The notes under the pieces: model-generated
What the model saw: only the letters and a program-made list of their open reading frames with translations
Told to the model about the DNA's origin: nothing
The model's database searches: none
In this document: positions 13,695 through 39,300 of the stretch, in pieces
Layout: every line of letters begins with the position of its first letter
How positions within the stretch are numbered: the first letter of the stretch is position 1
Position numbers and translations under genes: made by a program
Origin: Acidimicrobiales bacterium MED-G01
GTDB taxonomy: Bacteria; Actinomycetota; Acidimicrobiia; Acidimicrobiales; Poriferisodalaceae
Assembly: GCA_002457435.1 (NCBI GenBank)
Contig: NTLA01000009.1
Coordinates: forward strand, 1 to 64,000
Reading direction: 5' to 3'
Length of the DNA stretch: 64,000 bases

Positions 13695-14434
13695 TTATCC
13701 ACAGGCCCTAAGTTTTCAGCTTCCCCTTTACGAGCGTGTCGACGCAGCACCAACGGATAGCCGACCGCCCCCACTGCGAAAAAGAGAAACCACTGGACGG
13801 CGTAAGCCAAGTGGGGCCCGAGGTGAGTGGGAGGCGGATCGAGTGGAATAGCACTAGTTGCCGAAGGGTCACTAGTGATCACTTCGACGTAAACAGGGGC
13901 CAGCGAGAATGGCACCTGTTGATCGATTCTGGCAACGTCAGTTCGAGCCAGAGAAGCAAGTATCCCGCTCGAAGAATCGCGTGCTCCGATTGCACCACGC
14001 TCCTGGCTCAGACGTACCCGTCCAGTTAGTGAAACAGTTTCCGAAGGCGGCTCAAGCTGGTTTGCATCGCACGAACTTTGATGAAGCCATCCAACAACGA
14101 CAAGAACTGCTCGTGCATCGCTGATGGCCAGTGGAACCGCTAAATGACAACCTGCCATTTCCTGGTGGCTTCTGTTCCGAATCAGCACAGCATCCTCGGG
14201 GGACCACTTTCCCTCCAACTGCACCATCCTAAATTCGATGCTCTCAGTTGACGCGAACAGATCGGTTGCTGTCAGAACGGTCGCGCTGGATCGTTCAACA
14301 ACGATTTCATTACGGTCACCTCGCGCCTGATGTCGTTGGAACTGCCAGACCCCAGCGGACATAAAGGCAATCAACAACAGCAACGTGAGAAGGTGTGCCG
14401 CTATCCATTTCGGTTCACGAACGAAGCCGTACAT
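13691..14434 (-). CDS. SURF1-family cytochrome oxidase assembly protein
   Basis: 247 residues from the ATG at 14432-14434; longer starts would run into the divergent CapA gene. Two membrane segments flank an extracytoplasmic domain: an N-terminal helix with LLIAFMSAGVWQFQRHQAR, the SURF1 hallmark W-Q-x-x-R, and a C-terminal helix at YAVQWFLFFAVGAVGYPLVLRR starting with the H-x-x-Y-A-x-Q-W motif. The central domain contains LEGKWSPEDAVLIRNRS and VVVGWL, also family-like. SURF1 helps insert heme into cytochrome c oxidase, so its presence points to aerobic respiration. No ctaA/ctaB or oxidase genes are near. Confidence 0.9.
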   Translation of the reverse strand: MYGFVREPKWIAAHLLTLLLLIAFMSAGVWQFQRHQARGDRNEIVVERSSATVLTATDLFASTESIEFRMVQLEGKWSPEDAVLIRNRSHQEMAGCHLAVPLAISDARAVLVVVGWLHQSSCDANQLEPPSETVSLTGRVRLSQERGAIGARDSSSGILASLARTDVARIDQQVPFSLAPVYVEVITSDPSATSAIPLDPPPTHLGPHLAYAVQWFLFFAVGAVGYPLVLRRHARKGEAENLGPVDN

Positions 14435-14471
14435 CAGGAGCACGCTAGCTGGCAACGTAGACTCAGCCGCC

Positions 14472-15701
14472 GTGGACCGCCGATACATCCTTGTGGCAAC
14501 CGTCGCTGTATGTTCCGCTTTCATAGTCGCGTGCGCAGGGCCCAAAGCAGAGAAAGCCATCTTTGTTGCCCGTGAAACAACGACAACTTCTGGCCTAGAA
14601 CTCGAACAAGAGGTAGATGTTTCTGCGACAAGTGAGGGAACGCGGGTTGACCAAAACGCTGCTCAACCCGCCGAAGTTGCTCCAACCACTGAGGGCGTAA
14701 CCCACAGTGTGACGACTACAACAGCAAAGAGGCAGCCGTGGAGCCTCCTTGCAGGTGGCGACGTGTTGCTTGATCTGACTGAACCTGAAGGAATCGATCC
14801 GTTCGCGAACGTTCAACCCGACCTTGCATCAGCAGATATAGCGATTGTGAACCTTGAGATGGCGATTACGGAACGTGGGGACCCTTATGACAAGGAATTC
14901 GTTTTTCGCGCTCCCGGGTCGGCCGCACTAACCCTGGCTGGAGCTGGAATAGACGTGGTGTCGTTAGCTAATAATCACGTGCTTGACTTCGGTCCAGTTG
15001 GTCTCGCGGACACCATTGCAGTTCTCGACGAAGTTGACATTTTGCGGCCCGGAGCCGGGTCAAATAATGCAGAGGCCTACGCACCTCGAGTCCTGACATT
15101 GGACAACGGTATTCGCGTCGCCTTTGTTTCTGCGACGGCTGTGGTCCCAGGTGGCTTTGCTGCATCAGCTGATCGCCCCGGGGTTGCTGATGCGAAGTGG
15201 GCGATTCCGCGGGTCTTAGCTTCAGTTCGGGCAGCGGCGGCGAGCAACGATGTAGTAGTCGTAAGTGTCCACTGGGGGATTGAACGCGAAACTTGTCCAA
15301 GTGACGATCAACGAGACCTAGCTATGGATCTCATCGAAGCCGGAGCGAACCTAATTCTTGGGCATCATCCTCACGTCCTACAACCCATAGAAACCTTTGA
15401 TCGCACAGTCATTGCGTACTCACTGGGTAATTTCGTGTGGCATCCGCGTTATGGGATAACCGGTGACAGTGGTGTTTTGGAAATCAGCTTTGACGGATCC
15501 TATGTAGAGGGCTATCGCTTCCACCCCCATATTTTGGATTACCGGGGAGGGGCGACTCCGGTCTCGAGCGGCGACCGATACGAGCGCATCGTTGATGTCA
15601 TTGAGGGAAGGTGCGAGGAGCACGACCCGGAGCCCCCGACGACTACCGAAGTTGCCGATGACGGGGCCACAGATACGACAACTTCAACCACAGCCGGCTG
15701 A
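14472..15701 (+). CDS. CapA-like metallophosphatase-fold lipoprotein
   Basis: 409 residues from the GTG at 14472, which gives a signal peptide with lipobox IVAC at about residue 15-18. The domain matches the poly-gamma-glutamate capsule protein CapA family: LLAGGDVLLD (about residue 93), IVNLEMAIT, SLANNHVLDFG (about 162), VVVVSVHWGIE, LILGHHPHVLQPIE (about 295) and YSLGNFVWHPR. These Asp/Asn/His motifs are typical metal ligands of calcineurin-like enzymes. The tail is rich in Thr, Glu and Asp and probably unstructured. No capB/capC genes lie nearby, so capsule synthesis is not implied; a periplasmic hydrolase acting on a wall or polymer substrate is possible. Only 37 bases separate it from the divergent SURF1 gene. 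Confidence 0.9.
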   Translation: MDRRYILVATVAVCSAFIVACAGPKAEKAIFVARETTTTSGLELEQEVDVSATSEGTRVDQNAAQPAEVAPTTEGVTHSVTTTTAKRQPWSLLAGGDVLLDLTEPEGIDPFANVQPDLASADIAIVNLEMAITERGDPYDKEFVFRAPGSAALTLAGAGIDVVSLANNHVLDFGPVGLADTIAVLDEVDILRPGAGSNNAEAYAPRVLTLDNGIRVAFVSATAVVPGGFAASADRPGVADAKWAIPRVLASVRAAAASNDVVVVSVHWGIERETCPSDDQRDLAMDLIEAGANLILGHHPHVLQPIETFDRTVIAYSLGNFVWHPRYGITGDSGVLEISFDGSYVEGYRFHPHILDYRGGATPVSSGDRYERIVDVIEGRCEEHDPEPPTTTEVADDGATDTTTSTTAG

Positions 15702-15703
15702 AT

Positions 15704-17605
15704 TCACAAAATCTCAACGGGGAAAATCAGATCTGCGGGGTCGAACCCCAGGACCTGTCCTAAGAAAGAAAGCTCTGCGTCCAAAGCACGAGCGATTGTG
15801 TCTGCTTTGCGGAAGCCGTGACTTTCCCCTTCGAAAAGAACATAAGAGTGGGGAATCCCGGCATTGGTCAGTGCCTCCACGAGCTGTTCAGCTTGAGACG
15901 GTGGTACGACGGGGTCATCTGACCCCTGAAGAACAATCATGGGTGTCGATAATCGGTGTGTGTGATGGATAGGCGAACGTTCGTCGTATATATCTTTTTC
16001 AGCAGGCCATTCCCCAACCAATGAGTCAAGATAACGAGCCTCGAATTTATGTGTGTCGCGGGCCAGAGAGGCAAGGTCGGCCACCCCGTAGCGCGACACC
16101 CCGGCTGCGAAAAGTGTGCTCGATGTCAACGCACAAAGCGTCGTGAAGCCCCCTGCAGAGCCGCCTTTTATCGCCAGCCGGCCAGGATCAACCAATGCGT
16201 TGTCGGCCAGATATTTTGCGGTCGCTATGCAGTCCTGGGTATCGGCAACTCCCCACTGGCCCCGGAGTTTGTTTCTGTAGGCCGTGCCGAAACCAGTACT
16301 CCCTCGATAATTCACGTCCACAACTGCGATGCCCCTATTGGTCCAATACTGAACAGCAGGATCGAAAGAAGATCTCGCAGCCCCGGTAGGACCGCCGTGG
16401 CTGAGAACCACGAGGGGCGGTGACTCAGAAGAACACAAAAACGCGGAATTATTTGGAGCAAAATAAAAGCCGTAAGTAGCTTCCCCCGACGGGTCCGTGA
16501 CCTCAATAGTTTCAGGAGTCGAAATCTCTTCTTGGCCGATAGGGAGTGGACGTGACGTGCTTATCTGTTCGGTTGAACCGTCGGTGTGCAACGTTCGGAC
16601 AGCAGCGTTTGTTTCCCAACTGGCTGCAATGGTGACTGCTCGTCCATCTCCCAAGATATCTAAACCGTTGAATTCGGTTAAACCGCTGTCAATTGTGACC
16701 CATCGAGAGTCGATAATCTGGCCCGCCCGGCCGACGCCTTCGTCGATCCAAGTGCACCAGATGGCATCACCAGCCCAGTCGTAGGTTTTTTGGCCAAACA
16801 CCCATCCGGGAATGCCGAACTCAACTTCTGCCTCAACAACCGGATGAGATGAGTCACTGTGCACGTCAACCTCGTGGATATTCCACCAACCGGTTGCATC
16901 GCTGATGACGTGAAGGCGACCGTCGGGTGAGAACCGTGGTTGCTGTAACGCCGGGCCGTCGAGTACCACCCGGTGTTGCGCCCACCCGGTCGCCTGACGT
17001 TGAGCCACATGCAGCCGCACGTGGTCCCAGGGCATTGAGGGATGATCCCAAGACAAATATGCAAGCAATTTGCCATCGGGAGAAATGGTTGGAGACGAGT
17101 AAAAATCTGCTCCCGAAGCCACTTCAATCATGTCACCAGTGGGAGTAATGGTGGCCAACAAATTTTGAGGATGGACACCGCTGTTCTGATGTCGTTCGAT
17201 AACCCAAATTGTGTCGCTGGTCTCGGGAACAACGACCCCGTTTGAGTACCGCAACCCATTAGGGAAAGCTGGCTCGACGGTTACCGGGCGGAAGTCGTCA
17301 TTGAGGAGCCAAAGCCGTTGGTCTTCGAAACGAGAAACCAAGATTCCATTATCGGTGGGCAGCCATGCACCGCCTCCATATTCGTGAACCAATGTGCGCA
17401 CGTTGAGGTCATCTGGCCCGACCGTGACGGTTTTAACGCCATCAAATTTAACTATTGTCGTCCGACCCGACTCTTCGGGTCGGCCCTCTAACCACAGCAC
17501 CTCGTCATTGAAAACGCGAGGCTCAGAAAGACGAGTCGCCCCGCTCGCGAGTTGCTCGGACGTGAGTTCCGATGGCCAACTGCCATAGGGTTGATCTTGT
17601 TTCAA
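15704..17605 (-). CDS. S9-family prolyl oligopeptidase-like serine peptidase
   Basis: 633 residues. The N-terminal 370 residues form a beta-propeller (repeats such as SPDGKLLAYLSWDHP and FSPDGRLHVISD), and the C-terminal part is an alpha/beta hydrolase: VVLSHGGPTGAARS, the nucleophile in KGGSAGGFTT (about residue 480), the acid in QGSDDPVVP and the histidine in GESHGF. This matches dipeptidyl aminopeptidase/acylaminoacyl-peptidase enzymes that cut small peptides. No signal peptide is seen, so it is likely cytoplasmic. It starts 241 bases downstream of xseB, with the structured region at 17730-17850 in the gap. Confidence 0.92.
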   Translation of the reverse strand: MKQDQPYGSWPSELTSEQLASGATRLSEPRVFNDEVLWLEGRPEESGRTTIVKFDGVKTVTVGPDDLNVRTLVHEYGGGAWLPTDNGILVSRFEDQRLWLLNDDFRPVTVEPAFPNGLRYSNGVVVPETSDTIWVIERHQNSGVHPQNLLATITPTGDMIEVASGADFYSSPTISPDGKLLAYLSWDHPSMPWDHVRLHVAQRQATGWAQHRVVLDGPALQQPRFSPDGRLHVISDATGWWNIHEVDVHSDSSHPVVEAEVEFGIPGWVFGQKTYDWAGDAIWCTWIDEGVGRAGQIIDSRWVTIDSGLTEFNGLDILGDGRAVTIAASWETNAAVRTLHTDGSTEQISTSRPLPIGQEEISTPETIEVTDPSGEATYGFYFAPNNSAFLCSSESPPLVVLSHGGPTGAARSSFDPAVQYWTNRGIAVVDVNYRGSTGFGTAYRNKLRGQWGVADTQDCIATAKYLADNALVDPGRLAIKGGSAGGFTTLCALTSSTLFAAGVSRYGVADLASLARDTHKFEARYLDSLVGEWPAEKDIYDERSPIHHTHRLSTPMIVLQGSDDPVVPPSQAEQLVEALTNAGIPHSYVLFEGESHGFRKADTIARALDAELSFLGQVLGFDPADLIFPVEIL

Positions 17606-17729
17606 CTTGGCCCCAAAAATGCTTTGAAGATGGACTAATTAACGCTACTCCCTCGCTATGATCCTGCACGTAAGAAATGAGGATTCGGGCAAATACGAGC
17701 GTTGCACACGCTGGTCCGAAAATAGAATT

Positions 17730-17855
17730 GGTGCCCATCTTGATGGGCGCCGTGAGGCCTGCGCCCCAGATTTCCCACCAATCTGCGGGCGTTCCGTGGG
17801 CCGAGGGAGTACCCACCGACCCCCTCGGCTCACATCTTTGTGAGCCTTAATCTTT
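17730..17855 (+). ncRNA. Candidate structured RNA with four stem-loops
   Basis: In the 241-base gap between xseB and the S9 peptidase gene. Stems: 17730-17739 with 17742-17751 (10 pairs); 17761-17772 with 17780-17792 (12 pairs, one bulge); 17801-17807 with 17822-17828 (7 pairs, extendable by 1-2), with GTGGG at 17796-17800 able to pair across it with CCCAC at 17812-17816; and 17827-17834 with 17839-17846 (8 pairs), followed on the plus strand by TTAATCTTT. Three pairs are G-T when read on the plus strand and would be A-C mismatches on the minus strand, which favours a plus-strand RNA ending in a terminator-like hairpin. A TATGAT box at 17657-17662 could be a -10 element but has no good -35. 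I recognise no known RNA family. The last hairpin may also end xseAB transcription. Confidence 0.45.
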
Positions 17856-18050
17856 GTCGAGGTCAGAAACGATCCGTTCAACCTCATGTCGCGTCGTTTC
17901 GAGACGTCCCCTGCACCATTCGATTAACTCTGACGCCCGTTGCAGATCAACGGTTAGCGAATCAATATTCACGTCGTCGCTGTCGAGCTTCTTCAGAATT
18001 GCATCCAATTCCTGGGTGGCGGCTTGAAAACTAAGATCTTCCTCGGTCAT
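17847..18050 (-). CDS. xseB: Exodeoxyribonuclease VII small subunit
   Basis: 67 residues, the usual size for XseB. It contains SFQAATQELDAILKKLDSDDVNIDSLTVDL, split here as the family's F-x-x-A-x-x-E-L-x-x-I-x-x-x-L-E and D-x-L-x-x-D-L-x-R-A-x-x-L patterns, then a C-terminal CRGRLETT. It binds XseA to form the nuclease that degrades single-stranded DNA to oligonucleotides. Its start overlaps the xseA stop by 4 bases, the normal xseA-xseB operon. A hairpin immediately follows the stop codon. Confidence 0.94.
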   Translation of the reverse strand: MTEEDLSFQAATQELDAILKKLDSDDVNIDSLTVDLQRASELIEWCRGRLETTRHEVERIVSDLDKD

Positions 18051-19511: not shown

Positions 19512-19601
19512 GGAAGGTTGCCAGAGCGGACGAATGGGGCGGCCTCGAAAGCCGTTGTGGCCTCCGGGTCACCGTGGGTTCGAATCCCACACCTTCCGCC
19601 A
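19512..19601 (+). tRNA. tRNA-Ser (anticodon CGA)
   Basis: Acceptor stem GGAAGGT at 19512-19518 pairs with ACCTTCC at 19591-19597, discriminator G, and CCA is encoded at 19599-19601. The anticodon loop reads CTCGAAA, giving CGA (reads UCG). The long variable arm and the T loop TTCGAAT are as expected for a type II serine tRNA. It runs towards the tadA stop codon on the opposite strand and is nearly the mirror image of the second tRNA-Ser at 20083. Confidence 0.95.
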
Positions 19602-19636: not shown

Positions 19637-20083
19637 TCATCGTCGCTCAGCGAAAAACTGCGAGAGAATGTCGCCGCATTGGGCGGCCAGAACACCGCTC
19701 GTTATTTTTGTTTGGTGGTTGAGTCGAGGGTCGTCAAGCAAGTTGTACAGCGTTTCGACAGCGCCGGCCTTTGGATCGTGAGCCCCGAAAATGACATGGG
19801 CTACACGCGCGTTGAGGGCCGCTCCCGCGCACATAGGGCATGGTTCTAGAGTCGTCACTAGAATCGAATTGTCGAGATGCCAGGTCCCTAAATGAGAAGC
19901 TGCATCTCTCAGAGCCAAGATTTCGGCGTGGGCGGTTGGATCGCCGGTCAACTGGCGTTCGTTGTGACGTGAAGCGATCACCGTGCCGTCAACTATGACC
20001 AGTGCGCCTACGGGCACGTCCTCATGTTGGATAGCGCTTTCAGCTTCTTGGAGAGCGAGACGCATGGCTTCATCATCGTTCAT
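19637..20083 (-). CDS. tadA: tRNA adenosine(34) deaminase
   Basis: 148 residues with start ATG at 20081-20083. Zinc deaminase motifs HAEILALRDA (about residue 54) and PCPMCAGAAL (about 83) are complete, with the catalytic glutamate in HAE. TadA converts A34 to inosine in tRNA-Arg(ACG). The N-terminus MNDDEAMRLALQEAE matches the family, so the start is well supported. That start lies directly on the 3' end of tRNA-Ser(GGA): the A of the encoded CCA is the A of the ATG. The mRNA must therefore either read through the tRNA or begin, leaderless, at the tRNA processing point. No Shine-Dalgarno can exist outside the tRNA body. Confidence 0.95.
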   Translation of the reverse strand: MNDDEAMRLALQEAESAIQHEDVPVGALVIVDGTVIASRHNERQLTGDPTAHAEILALRDAASHLGTWHLDNSILVTTLEPCPMCAGAALNARVAHVIFGAHDPKAGAVETLYNLLDDPRLNHQTKITSGVLAAQCGDILSQFFAERR

Positions 20084-20173
20084 GGCGGAGAGTGTGGGAT
20101 TCGAACCCACGGAGGCCGGTTAGACCTCACACGCTTTCCAAGCGAGCCCATTCGTCCGCTCTGGCAACTCTCC
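20083..20173 (-). tRNA. tRNA-Ser (anticodon GGA)
   Basis: On the reverse strand the 5' acceptor GGAGAGT (20173-20167) pairs with ACTCTCC (20093-20087), discriminator G at 20086 and encoded CCA at 20085-20083. The anticodon loop reads CTTGGAAA, giving GGA (reads UCC/UCU). A long variable arm is present. It shares long identical blocks with tRNA-Ser(CGA) at 19512, for example in the D arm and T arm. Its 5' end is about 3 bases from the predicted SRP RNA, and its last base is the first base of tadA, so ffs, tRNA and tadA look like one transcript. Confidence 0.95.
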
Positions 20174-20175
20174 TC

Positions 20176-20310
20176 GATCATCGTCCCACGAGGCGACCAG
20201 GTGATCTGCGGCACACAGCGGAATCCGCTGAGAGCTGCTGCCTTCCGGCCCTGACTCGATTCACGGGCCACTGTTGCACAGGACCCGGCCGCCACGTGGA
20301 ACGATGATGC
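20176..20310 (-). ncRNA. ffs: Signal recognition particle RNA (4.5S/small SRP RNA)
   Basis: On the reverse strand the universally conserved SRP domain IV core is present around 20256-20233: GTCAGG, then GCCGGAAGGC with the GGAA tetraloop, then AGCAGC. Flanking arms pair over a long rod: ACAGTGG with CCGCTGT, GGCGGCCGGGT with ACCTGGTCGCC (11 pairs with wobbles), CGTTCCACG with CGTGGGACG, and further ATCATCG with CGATGAT, which sets the approximate ends given here. The exact ends are uncertain by several bases. The RNA targets membrane proteins with Ffh. It lies between tRNA-Ser(GGA) and dnaX, the usual genomic neighbourhood of bacterial SRP RNA. Confidence 0.92.
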
Positions 20311-20366: not shown

Positions 20367-22073
20367 ATGGTGTATCAGTCCTTGTACCGACGTTTTCGGC
20401 CACAAACCTTTTCCGAGGTAATCGGCCAAGATCACTTGGTTGCAGCTCTTCGCAATGCAGTGGTCGAAGAACGCGTTGGGCATGCTTATTTACTCAGTGG
20501 CCCGCGTGGGACAGGCAAGACATCAACTGCTCGTATTTTGGCGAAAGCTTTGAACTGTCTGGAGCCGCCAGGAGACGGAGAGCCATGTGGGAATTGTGAC
20601 AGCTGCACAAACTTTGAGTCTGGCACTTCAATGGATCTCGTTGAGTTAGACGCCGCATCGCACAGAGGGCTTGACGATGTTCGTCAGATTAATCGCGATG
20701 TTGCATTAGGAAATCCGGGAAAACGCAAAGTCTATGTTCTCGACGAAGTCCACATGCTCACACGCGAGGCCTCCAATGCTCTGTTGAAGACCCTTGAGGA
20801 ACCGCCTGAGCACGTGATTTTCGTTCTGGCGACGACCGACCCTCAGAAAGTTCTGCCCACAATTCGTAGTAGGACACAACATGTCGAACTGACATTGGTC
20901 CCCGCGGGGCTTCTTCGCGAGCATGCCAAAGAAATTGCCGAACGAGCTGAATTGCAGATCGATTCGTCCGTGGTTGATTACGTGGTCGAACGGGGCGGTG
21001 GTTCGGTTCGAGACATGCTTTCGGCGTTAGACCAAGTTGTCACAGCGGGCGGTGTTCCTGAACATCGAGGCTCGGTTGATGCTCTTGTCGATGCGATCGT
21101 CGCGCAGGATCTCACGGAGTCAATGACTGCTGTTGCTGAAATCGTTGCTGCTGGTGTTGACCCGAAAGATTTGGCGTATCGGTCGACTCGAAAGCTGAGA
21201 GATATTTTTCTTGCGGGTGCAGGAATTAACTCGGGAGACTCGATACCTGAAGAGTTACCTGACCTTGCCGAGAAAGCCGGCCGAATCACCAAGGCAGTTA
21301 ATGTCCGCGCATTGGAACTGTTGGGTCAGGCACTGGTTGATATGCGACAGGCACCGGATCCGCGACTTGTTTTGGACTTAGCGCTGGTCAGGCTGTTTGC
21401 TGGGGCAGTGGAGCCGCAAGCGCCTCGAAAACCCGAACGCTCCGCGAGTCCAGCACAGGAGACAGGCAGTGGACCTGCGGCTCAGGCGAGAGCGGCATTG
21501 GCGTCAGTGAAAGGCTCGGAAGAATCGGAAGCGTCGACTGCTGATTCGGCCAGTGCCCCGGTTCCGCCGGCTCCTCCACCTCCACCAAGTAGTGACAGCA
21601 ATGTCGCCGACCCCCCGGACCCGATGTTGCCCGCAAGTCAAGCATCAGACAAAACCCCCGAAGAATTGTCGATGGCACAGGTCGCAAAGATTTGGGAGCA
21701 ACAAGCCCTTCCCGCATTAAGCGCTCGAGCTCGGGCACGATTCCAAGCGGCGACGCTCGTCAGTGTCTCAGCAGGACAGGTGCAGTTCGAGTTGCCGAAC
21801 GAAACTCACCGAGAACGCTGTGAACAAATGAAAGACGATATCGAAGCAGTACTCCGAAAGGCCCTCGAGGCCCCTGTCCGGGTCGAACTCACAGCCGCGC
21901 GGGAAGCGAAGCCCGACGCAGATAGCAAACCAATCGTCGTAACCGAGGAAGAGATCGTAGATCCCGCTGAATTCGAGGCGAGCGCCGACGGTGGTCCTTC
22001 GAGTGTTGATCGACTCTTAGACGCTTTCCCCGGTGCCGTAGCGTCTGATGATGAAGGTAATGGACGAGGGTGA
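20367..22073 (+). CDS. dnaX: DNA polymerase III subunit gamma/tau
   Basis: 568 residues. AAA+ clamp-loader ATPase with YRRFRPQTFSEVIGQ near the start, Walker A GPRGTGKTSTARI (about residue 45-57), the zinc motif with CLEPPGDGEPCGNCDSC (about 64-80), Walker B VYVLDEVHML (about 123) and the sensor SRC-like segment LPTIRSRTQ (about 168). Residues 350-430 are a Pro/Ala/Ser-rich linker, followed by a C-terminal domain with VAKIWEQQALPALSARARARF that likely contacts the polymerase. I see no obvious slippery run for a gamma frameshift. It heads the conserved dnaX-ybaB-recR operon. Confidence 0.97.
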   Translation: MVYQSLYRRFRPQTFSEVIGQDHLVAALRNAVVEERVGHAYLLSGPRGTGKTSTARILAKALNCLEPPGDGEPCGNCDSCTNFESGTSMDLVELDAASHRGLDDVRQINRDVALGNPGKRKVYVLDEVHMLTREASNALLKTLEEPPEHVIFVLATTDPQKVLPTIRSRTQHVELTLVPAGLLREHAKEIAERAELQIDSSVVDYVVERGGGSVRDMLSALDQVVTAGGVPEHRGSVDALVDAIVAQDLTESMTAVAEIVAAGVDPKDLAYRSTRKLRDIFLAGAGINSGDSIPEELPDLAEKAGRITKAVNVRALELLGQALVDMRQAPDPRLVLDLALVRLFAGAVEPQAPRKPERSASPAQETGSGPAAQARAALASVKGSEESEASTADSASAPVPPAPPPPPSSDSNVADPPDPMLPASQASDKTPEELSMAQVAKIWEQQALPALSARARARFQAATLVSVSAGQVQFELPNETHRERCEQMKDDIEAVLRKALEAPVRVELTAAREAKPDADSKPIVVTEEEIVDPAEFEASADGGPSSVDRLLDAFPGAVASDDEGNGRG

Positions 22074-38570: not shown

Positions 38571-39173
38571 TTAGCCCATTGACCGGTTTATGGAGCGATT
38601 TGTAATCCGGCCGCCATTGTCAGTCATGAATCCAACAAATTCAGCGTTCTGGGAAAGCTCGGCAGAAGCTGCCAAGTAGCCATCCACTGAATCTGTGTAA
38701 AAGATATTCAGATAAGAACCAGTTTGTTCCCCAGCAGCAACCGCTCGAAGGCTTCGCATGCCGTTCACGCCGTGATTAGATGCGACACCCCACACCAGTT
38801 CATTTAATTGCTTGTTCAAAGCTAGGTCATGGTTAGCGGACTCAGCGGAGACGCCTATTGAATATGCGCCCTCGCCGTTTCCGTGTTCGCCCAGAACTTG
38901 ACCGATATTGAGGGCGATCGGTGACCATCCCGCTGTGCCAAATGCGGACTGCGCTTCAGGGTCGGCGTAGAGGGCTGCTCGTCCAGCGATACTCGCGTCA
39001 ACTGAATCCCAACTCGATGTCGCAATGCCTGCACCGGCAAGCTCACCTGTGAGAATCAGAGACGAGGTGACTCGTGATGAACCTAGAGCCATCAACTTTT
39101 CTTTCACCAGTGGCGCCAGGGTACCTATGTGACTCATATCTGCTGAGCCGACCGAAAAGACCATGTAAGACAC
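38571..39173 (-). CDS. Hypothetical protein
   Basis: About 200 residues. The GTG at 39173 is chosen since AAAGG lies 8 bases ahead; GTG 39182 and ATG 39164 are alternatives. Not recognised. It is soluble-looking and slightly acidic. Two halves each show an alternation of a strand, a helix and an acidic loop (MVFSVGSADMSHIG and LNIFYTDSVDGYLAAS), suggestive of a duplicated ferredoxin-like fold, as in dimeric alpha-beta barrel proteins; this is an impression only. It stands alone between the small membrane protein and menC, and 127 bases separate it from the menC stop. Confidence 0.6.
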   Translation of the reverse strand: MSYMVFSVGSADMSHIGTLAPLVKEKLMALGSSRVTSSLILTGELAGAGIATSSWDSVDASIAGRAALYADPEAQSAFGTAGWSPIALNIGQVLGEHGNGEGAYSIGVSAESANHDLALNKQLNELVWGVASNHGVNGMRSLRAVAAGEQTGSYLNIFYTDSVDGYLAASAELSQNAEFVGFMTDNGGRITNRSINRSMG

Positions 39174-39300
39174 AACTTCCACCTTTCTAGATGTTTGCTA
39201 GTGCATCGACCCTAGCGAAATAGGCATCGCGGCGGCGACTAACTCCGAGGTCCGATACCTGTCGGATGATGGAAGTGTTTCAGAATGTTTTGGTGTTGCC

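Follow-up and report, generated by a model that had tools for sequence, protein, structure and literature searches.

A probable new small RNA family with identical CCACC loops in two conserved hairpins of an actinobacterial family

Between a gene for an S9 peptidase and xseB, the genome of Acidimicrobiales bacterium MED-G01 carries a short gap that is dense in hairpins. A preliminary description, made from the letters of the DNA, had proposed an undescribed small RNA on the plus strand of this gap. Do the hairpins belong to a functional RNA, on which strand would it work, and what could it do? The window analyzed here is a stretch of 64,000 nucleotides of contig NTLA01000009.1, and the host genome is metagenome-assembled, 1.96 Mb in size, and 78% complete. 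In the open-licence literature, no described small RNA of such a kind was found for the host family, nor was this particular RNA found in any paper. The features of the locus are collected in Table 1.

Table 1. Features of the hairpin-rich gap, its neighbours, and one member of a candidate target family, as positions within the window
Feature	Position	Strand	Remarks
Candidate small RNA gene	17730-17839	+	Conserved structured RNA, ~110 bases; divergent S9 peptidase gene and convergent xseB on either side
Stem 1 (5' hairpin)	17730-17738 with 17743-17751	+	9-bp stem on folding
Stem 2 (hairpin A)	17762-17772 with 17780-17791	+	11 bp, one bulged base; loop UCCCACC at 17773-17779
Stem 3 (hairpin B)	17796-17809 with 17820-17833	+	Terminator-like; loop UACCCACCGA at 17810-17819
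Stem 4	17827-17834 with 17839-17846	+	Base pairing in the sequence
U-rich tail AUCUUU	17834-17839	+	Directly after hairpin B
Match of covariance model R1	17751-17849	+	103.1 bits, E 2e-22, for a sequence that is itself among the 26 used to build R1; single copy in genome
S9 (prolyl oligopeptidase) gene	15704-17605	-	PF00326, E 3.3e-51; divergent neighbour
xseB, exonuclease VII small subunit	17847-18050	-	PF02609, E 2.1e-9; convergent neighbour
Member of a multi-copy, weakly DUF6854-like family	about 38583-39180	-	GAAAGGTGGAAGTT directly before start

Paired structure, strand, and loops

All four stem-loops of the preliminary description are present in the gap, and its three G-T wobbles are real (17732/17749, 17761/17792, and 17799/17830, G-U on the plus strand). 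It was also right that the plus strand is antisense to both neighbouring genes. Hairpin B is longer than it appears, with 14 positions and one A-C mismatch in the host genome. In the comparison of folding energies that had been suggested as a check, the plus strand of the 126-base region folds at -66.2 kcal/mol (z = -6.9) and the minus strand at -64.7 kcal/mol (z = -4.9). As none of 200 dinucleotide shuffles folded as well on either strand, chance does not account for so dense a set of hairpins. Folding by itself leaves the strand undecided.

Relatives are more informative. By DNA search, most genomes of the family have the core, which lies immediately downstream of xseB; 28 loci were extracted and aligned, and covariance model R1 was built from the 26 distinct sequences. 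Covariation, the test named beforehand, proved strong, with changes on both sides in 13 of the 25 base pairs and 96.3% of cells paired over the whole structure. In hairpin A, 7 of 11 pairs have changed on both sides and 93.7% of cells pair; in hairpin B, the values are 6 of 14 and 98.4%. Cells changed on both sides number 62 against 19.8 in shuffled alignments. The covariation score, 0.343, compares with 0.200 (sd 0.011) after shuffling and is reached by 0 of 500 shuffles; the aligned sequences are related, hence this count is not a probability. When the partners were shifted by one to three columns, fewer than 50% of cells paired, instead of 96%. Given this slide control and the magnitude of the effect, there is little doubt that the paired structure is conserved.

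Where one strand forms a G-U pair, its complement has a C-A mismatch. Read on the plus strand, the 25 paired positions hold 46 G-U and 4 A-C cells, and the bias is found in each genus group; the innermost position, 64/73, is unpaired and was left out of this count. In genus g6, which lacks the U-run described below, the numbers are 15 and 0. This excess of G-U over A-C indicates that the functional transcript is most likely that of the plus strand. The good folding of the minus strand would also suit a cis-acting element, such as an S9 leader or attenuator or the 3' end of the xseB mRNA, but the wobble bias in every genus group argues against a functional leader or 3' end on that strand.

The loops are the most constant part of the RNA. 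The sequence CCACC is identical in the loops of both hairpin A and hairpin B in 28/28 loci, whereas identity is 81-89% in the stems and 49-53% in the flanks, which is the pattern expected if the loops are the working surface. They read CCCACC or UCCACC, with a longest run of four Cs (usually three), and an A interrupts the Cs in all 28 loci. Protein coding was considered as well and rejected, as indels of one base, or of other lengths not divisible by three, break the reading frames in relatives (L010, L015, L020, and L027).

The ends of the RNA are less uniform. A run of three to eight Us lies within a few bases 3' of hairpin B in 22 of the 28 loci. It is absent from all six loci of g6, the sole exception among the genera examined, and the host genome has just three Us in a row (CUUU). 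The T-rich stretch that had been placed after the last hairpin does exist as a U-run; the relevant one, however, directly follows the third hairpin (B) and sits inside the loop of stem 4. Stem 4, which only the host genus has, competes with the 3' arm of hairpin B. The overlap of the third and fourth stems, proposed earlier as a pair of alternatives, is thus present here, but the switch is not conserved. Cross-pairing of GTGGG with CCCAC fared no better, being nearly peculiar to the host genome because the base of the stem reads GUGAG, GUGAA, or GUGGA in most relatives.

At the other end, the 5' hairpin is highly variable in sequence and similarly placed in many relatives. The segment directly 5' of hairpin A has a mean folding z of -1.07 over the 28 loci, compared with -0.13 and +0.13 in control segments further upstream. 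Its membership in the RNA is therefore moderately supported. A scan for sigma-70 promoters at the locus found none, and no convincing promoter is seen: close relatives show only a TAGAAT-like stretch ahead of the 5' hairpin, where the host genus has a block resembling GAAAATAGAATTGG.

Distribution and gene neighbourhood

R1 matches 36 of the 39 genomes of the family, including all 25 of high quality, with one strong match each. Additional matches in these genomes are weak, and most fall on the complement of the same hairpin. Among 298 sampled genomes of the order, R1 matches convincingly in only 11, all of the host family, and the other 287 have no RNA by R1 (best ≤27 bits). Of 396 phylum genomes sampled, 395 lie outside the family, and R1 gave nothing above 30 bits in them. 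The two samples overlap, and these large searches used the stricter filters of Infernal, which are able to lose weak relatives. Weak matches elsewhere in the order and phylum (≤30 bits) look like chance hairpins and do not keep both CCACC loops. A pattern scan of all GTDB genomes yielded 64 matches, 33 of which are real by R1 (77 to 110 bits), and the rest score below 27 bits. The real ones are labelled Acidimicrobiia or lower taxa within this class, or just Actinomycetota or Actinomycetes; named relatives with the pattern include marine actinobacterium MedAcidi-G3, several Candidatus Microthrix sp. MAGs, and Acidimicrobiales MAGs.

The S9 gene lies upstream of the RNA and divergent to it in 33/33 loci, and xseB lies downstream and convergent in 29/33. 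Two of the four loci that lack an adjacent xseB end at a sequence edge, and in the other two, from genus g2, the distance to xseB exceeds 5 kb. In g2, the RNA and its U-run (TCTTTTTT) are retained beside S9 although xseB has gone from the neighbourhood; in one g2 genome, TRAP transporter-like genes (named by eye) follow the RNA. The constant proximity of S9 is what a cis element would predict, and hairpin B with its U-run could merely stop plus-strand transcription before xseB, or act as a two-way terminator. A bare terminator, however, requires neither hairpin A nor invariant loops, and the RNA stays in g2 without an adjacent xseB. Together with the wobbles, these points make a cis-acting role improbable.

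In 28 genomes from the order's other families, the xseB loci contain no RNA by R1 with filters off (best 14.9 bits); xseB was relocated by tblastn in 22 of them, and none of these 22 has an S9 neighbour there. By this comparison, the RNA and its position next to S9 look like a single innovation of the host family.

Several further features of the surroundings were recorded. Between the S9 gene and the RNA, a block at 17640-17680 is conserved between genera and reads approximately GGATCATA..CAAGGGCTAGCGTTAAT on the minus strand in relatives; it is possibly the promoter of the S9 gene. A PGA_cap (capsule synthesis type) gene at 14385-15701 (+) is convergent with the S9 gene. On the other side, a minus-strand gene for a tadA-like deaminase (19637-20110) is followed, just past its 3' end, by tRNA-Ser (cga) at 19512-19601 (+). 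The bacterial small SRP RNA (RF00169, 78.6 bits) at 20192-20290 (-) adjoins tRNA-Ser (gga) at 20083-20173 (-) and is divergent from a dnaX-like gene at 20367 (+, by eye).

Comparison with known RNA families

In Rfam 15, no family reached its gathering score over 17550-17950 or over the RNA in eight relatives, and the matches seen at gathering and permissive thresholds were rejected as chance. The central proposal of the preliminary description, an undescribed plus-strand small RNA, is thereby supported on four sides: covariation, the 46 to 4 wobble count, presence in all high-quality family genomes, and the lack of an Rfam match.

By definition, both loops of a 6C RNA have an uninterrupted run of six or more Cs. 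The loops of the 28 loci have runs of no more than four; two C-rich hairpins, the second a terminator, are found here as in 6C RNAs (hairpins A and B, with a U-run in 22/28 loci). The 6C model RF01066 (gathering score 47 bits) has no match in the region of the window or in eight family loci, and 0/39 family genomes exceed its cut-off, with weak hits of ≤29 bits at other places. The mycobacterial 6C RNA B11 has three stem-loops, of which loops 2 and 3 are C-rich and loop 3 is part of the terminator. Its C-rich loops pair with G-tracts next to ribosome-binding sites and block them (PMC12395582). For one target in M. abscessus, either loop alone is sufficient (PMC10470900). The likeness is one of layout: 6C/B11 RNAs, found in mycobacteria and other actinobacteria, also have about 100 bases and three stem-loops, the last two C-rich and the last an intrinsic terminator (PMC12395582). 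They differ in having 6 to 9 Cs, against CCCACC with an invariant A here, and in their gene neighbours (Rv3660-Rv3661 rather than S9 and xseB).

The shared layout and phylum could reflect descent, the RNA being a highly diverged 6C/B11 member. The silence of RF01066 in the family and of R1 in the rest of the phylum sample, the short C-runs with their invariant A, and the different neighbours make this highly improbable. Since it has no RF01066 match, no six-C run, and other neighbours, the RNA is not a 6C member by the available tests; it probably works like B11, judging by the architecture, and in our reading it represents a new sRNA family that is set apart by its loop sequence.

The alpha-r14 or cuckoo RNAs of alphaproteobacteria offer a second parallel, as an identical, ultraconserved C-rich loop motif is carried by several differing stems (PMC10746234). 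Their motif, CCUCCUCCC, is an anti-Shine-Dalgarno sequence and does not occur in the loops described here, whereas CCCACC would pair with GGUGGG and not GGAGG; they also belong to another phylum.

Proposed mode of action and candidate targets

We favour, with a probability of about 0.62, an independent plus-strand sRNA gene of about 110 bases that acts in trans by loop pairing at the ribosome-binding sites of mRNAs. Transcription would start near 17730 and end at an intrinsic terminator near 17839. The two hairpins, one of them the terminator, would display the same CCCACC in their loops, and by analogy with B11 a loop should pair with GGUGG(G) located in mRNAs at the ribosome-binding site or close to it. 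As in mycobacterial B11, pairing may block translation and speed decay. Several observations count against this reading: the lack of a convincing promoter, the lack of GGUGGG enrichment described below, the missing U-run in g6, and the short CUUU of the host.

Around gene starts (65-base window, 400-kb sample), GGUGGG occurs at six sites, without enrichment and at the density of gene bodies. At the Shine-Dalgarno position of first-ATG starts in the same sample, there are three sites against 0.7 expected, which are few counts. The partner of the loops may instead be a protein that binds C, such as one with a KH domain, so that the plus-strand sRNA would serve as a sponge or scaffold without mRNA pairing. 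Two copies of one loop suit a dimeric or repeated protein, and GGUGGG sites near starts are not clearly enriched. This alternative is possible but unlikely, as the closest architecture of known function, B11, acts by base pairing (PMC12395582).

For the base-pairing sRNA that we prefer, one lead to a target is available. A sampled gene that is weakly DUF6854-like (below the cut-off of Pfam) has GAGGTGGGAAC at the Shine-Dalgarno position, and 13 of 24 DUF6854-like homologues, which exclude the seed gene and are not independent, have GGTGG within 25 bases before the start. By comparison, GGTGG stands at Shine-Dalgarno spacing in about 3% of genes in a sample of the host genome. Some genera of the family have up to ten copies of this gene family per genome, many with an unusual AGGTGG Shine-Dalgarno-like sequence. 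The loops might accordingly be imagined to read AGGUGG but not the usual AGGAGG, and so control one gene class that includes the multi-copy DUF6854-like family; we regard this idea as quite doubtful. The nearest homologue (97% identical) has AGGAGGG instead, and AGGUGG may be a plain Shine-Dalgarno sequence, which leaves the DUF6854-like family as a lead only. DUF6854-like genes were not found in genera g2-g6, which keep the RNA.

A new RNA family is thus described that is invariably present in the high-quality genomes of a mostly uncultured actinobacterial family. This suggests that a distant class has its own version of the plan with two C-rich loops seen in mycobacterial B11, with another loop code. 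As the loop sequence CCACC is defined, targets would be predictable and testable.
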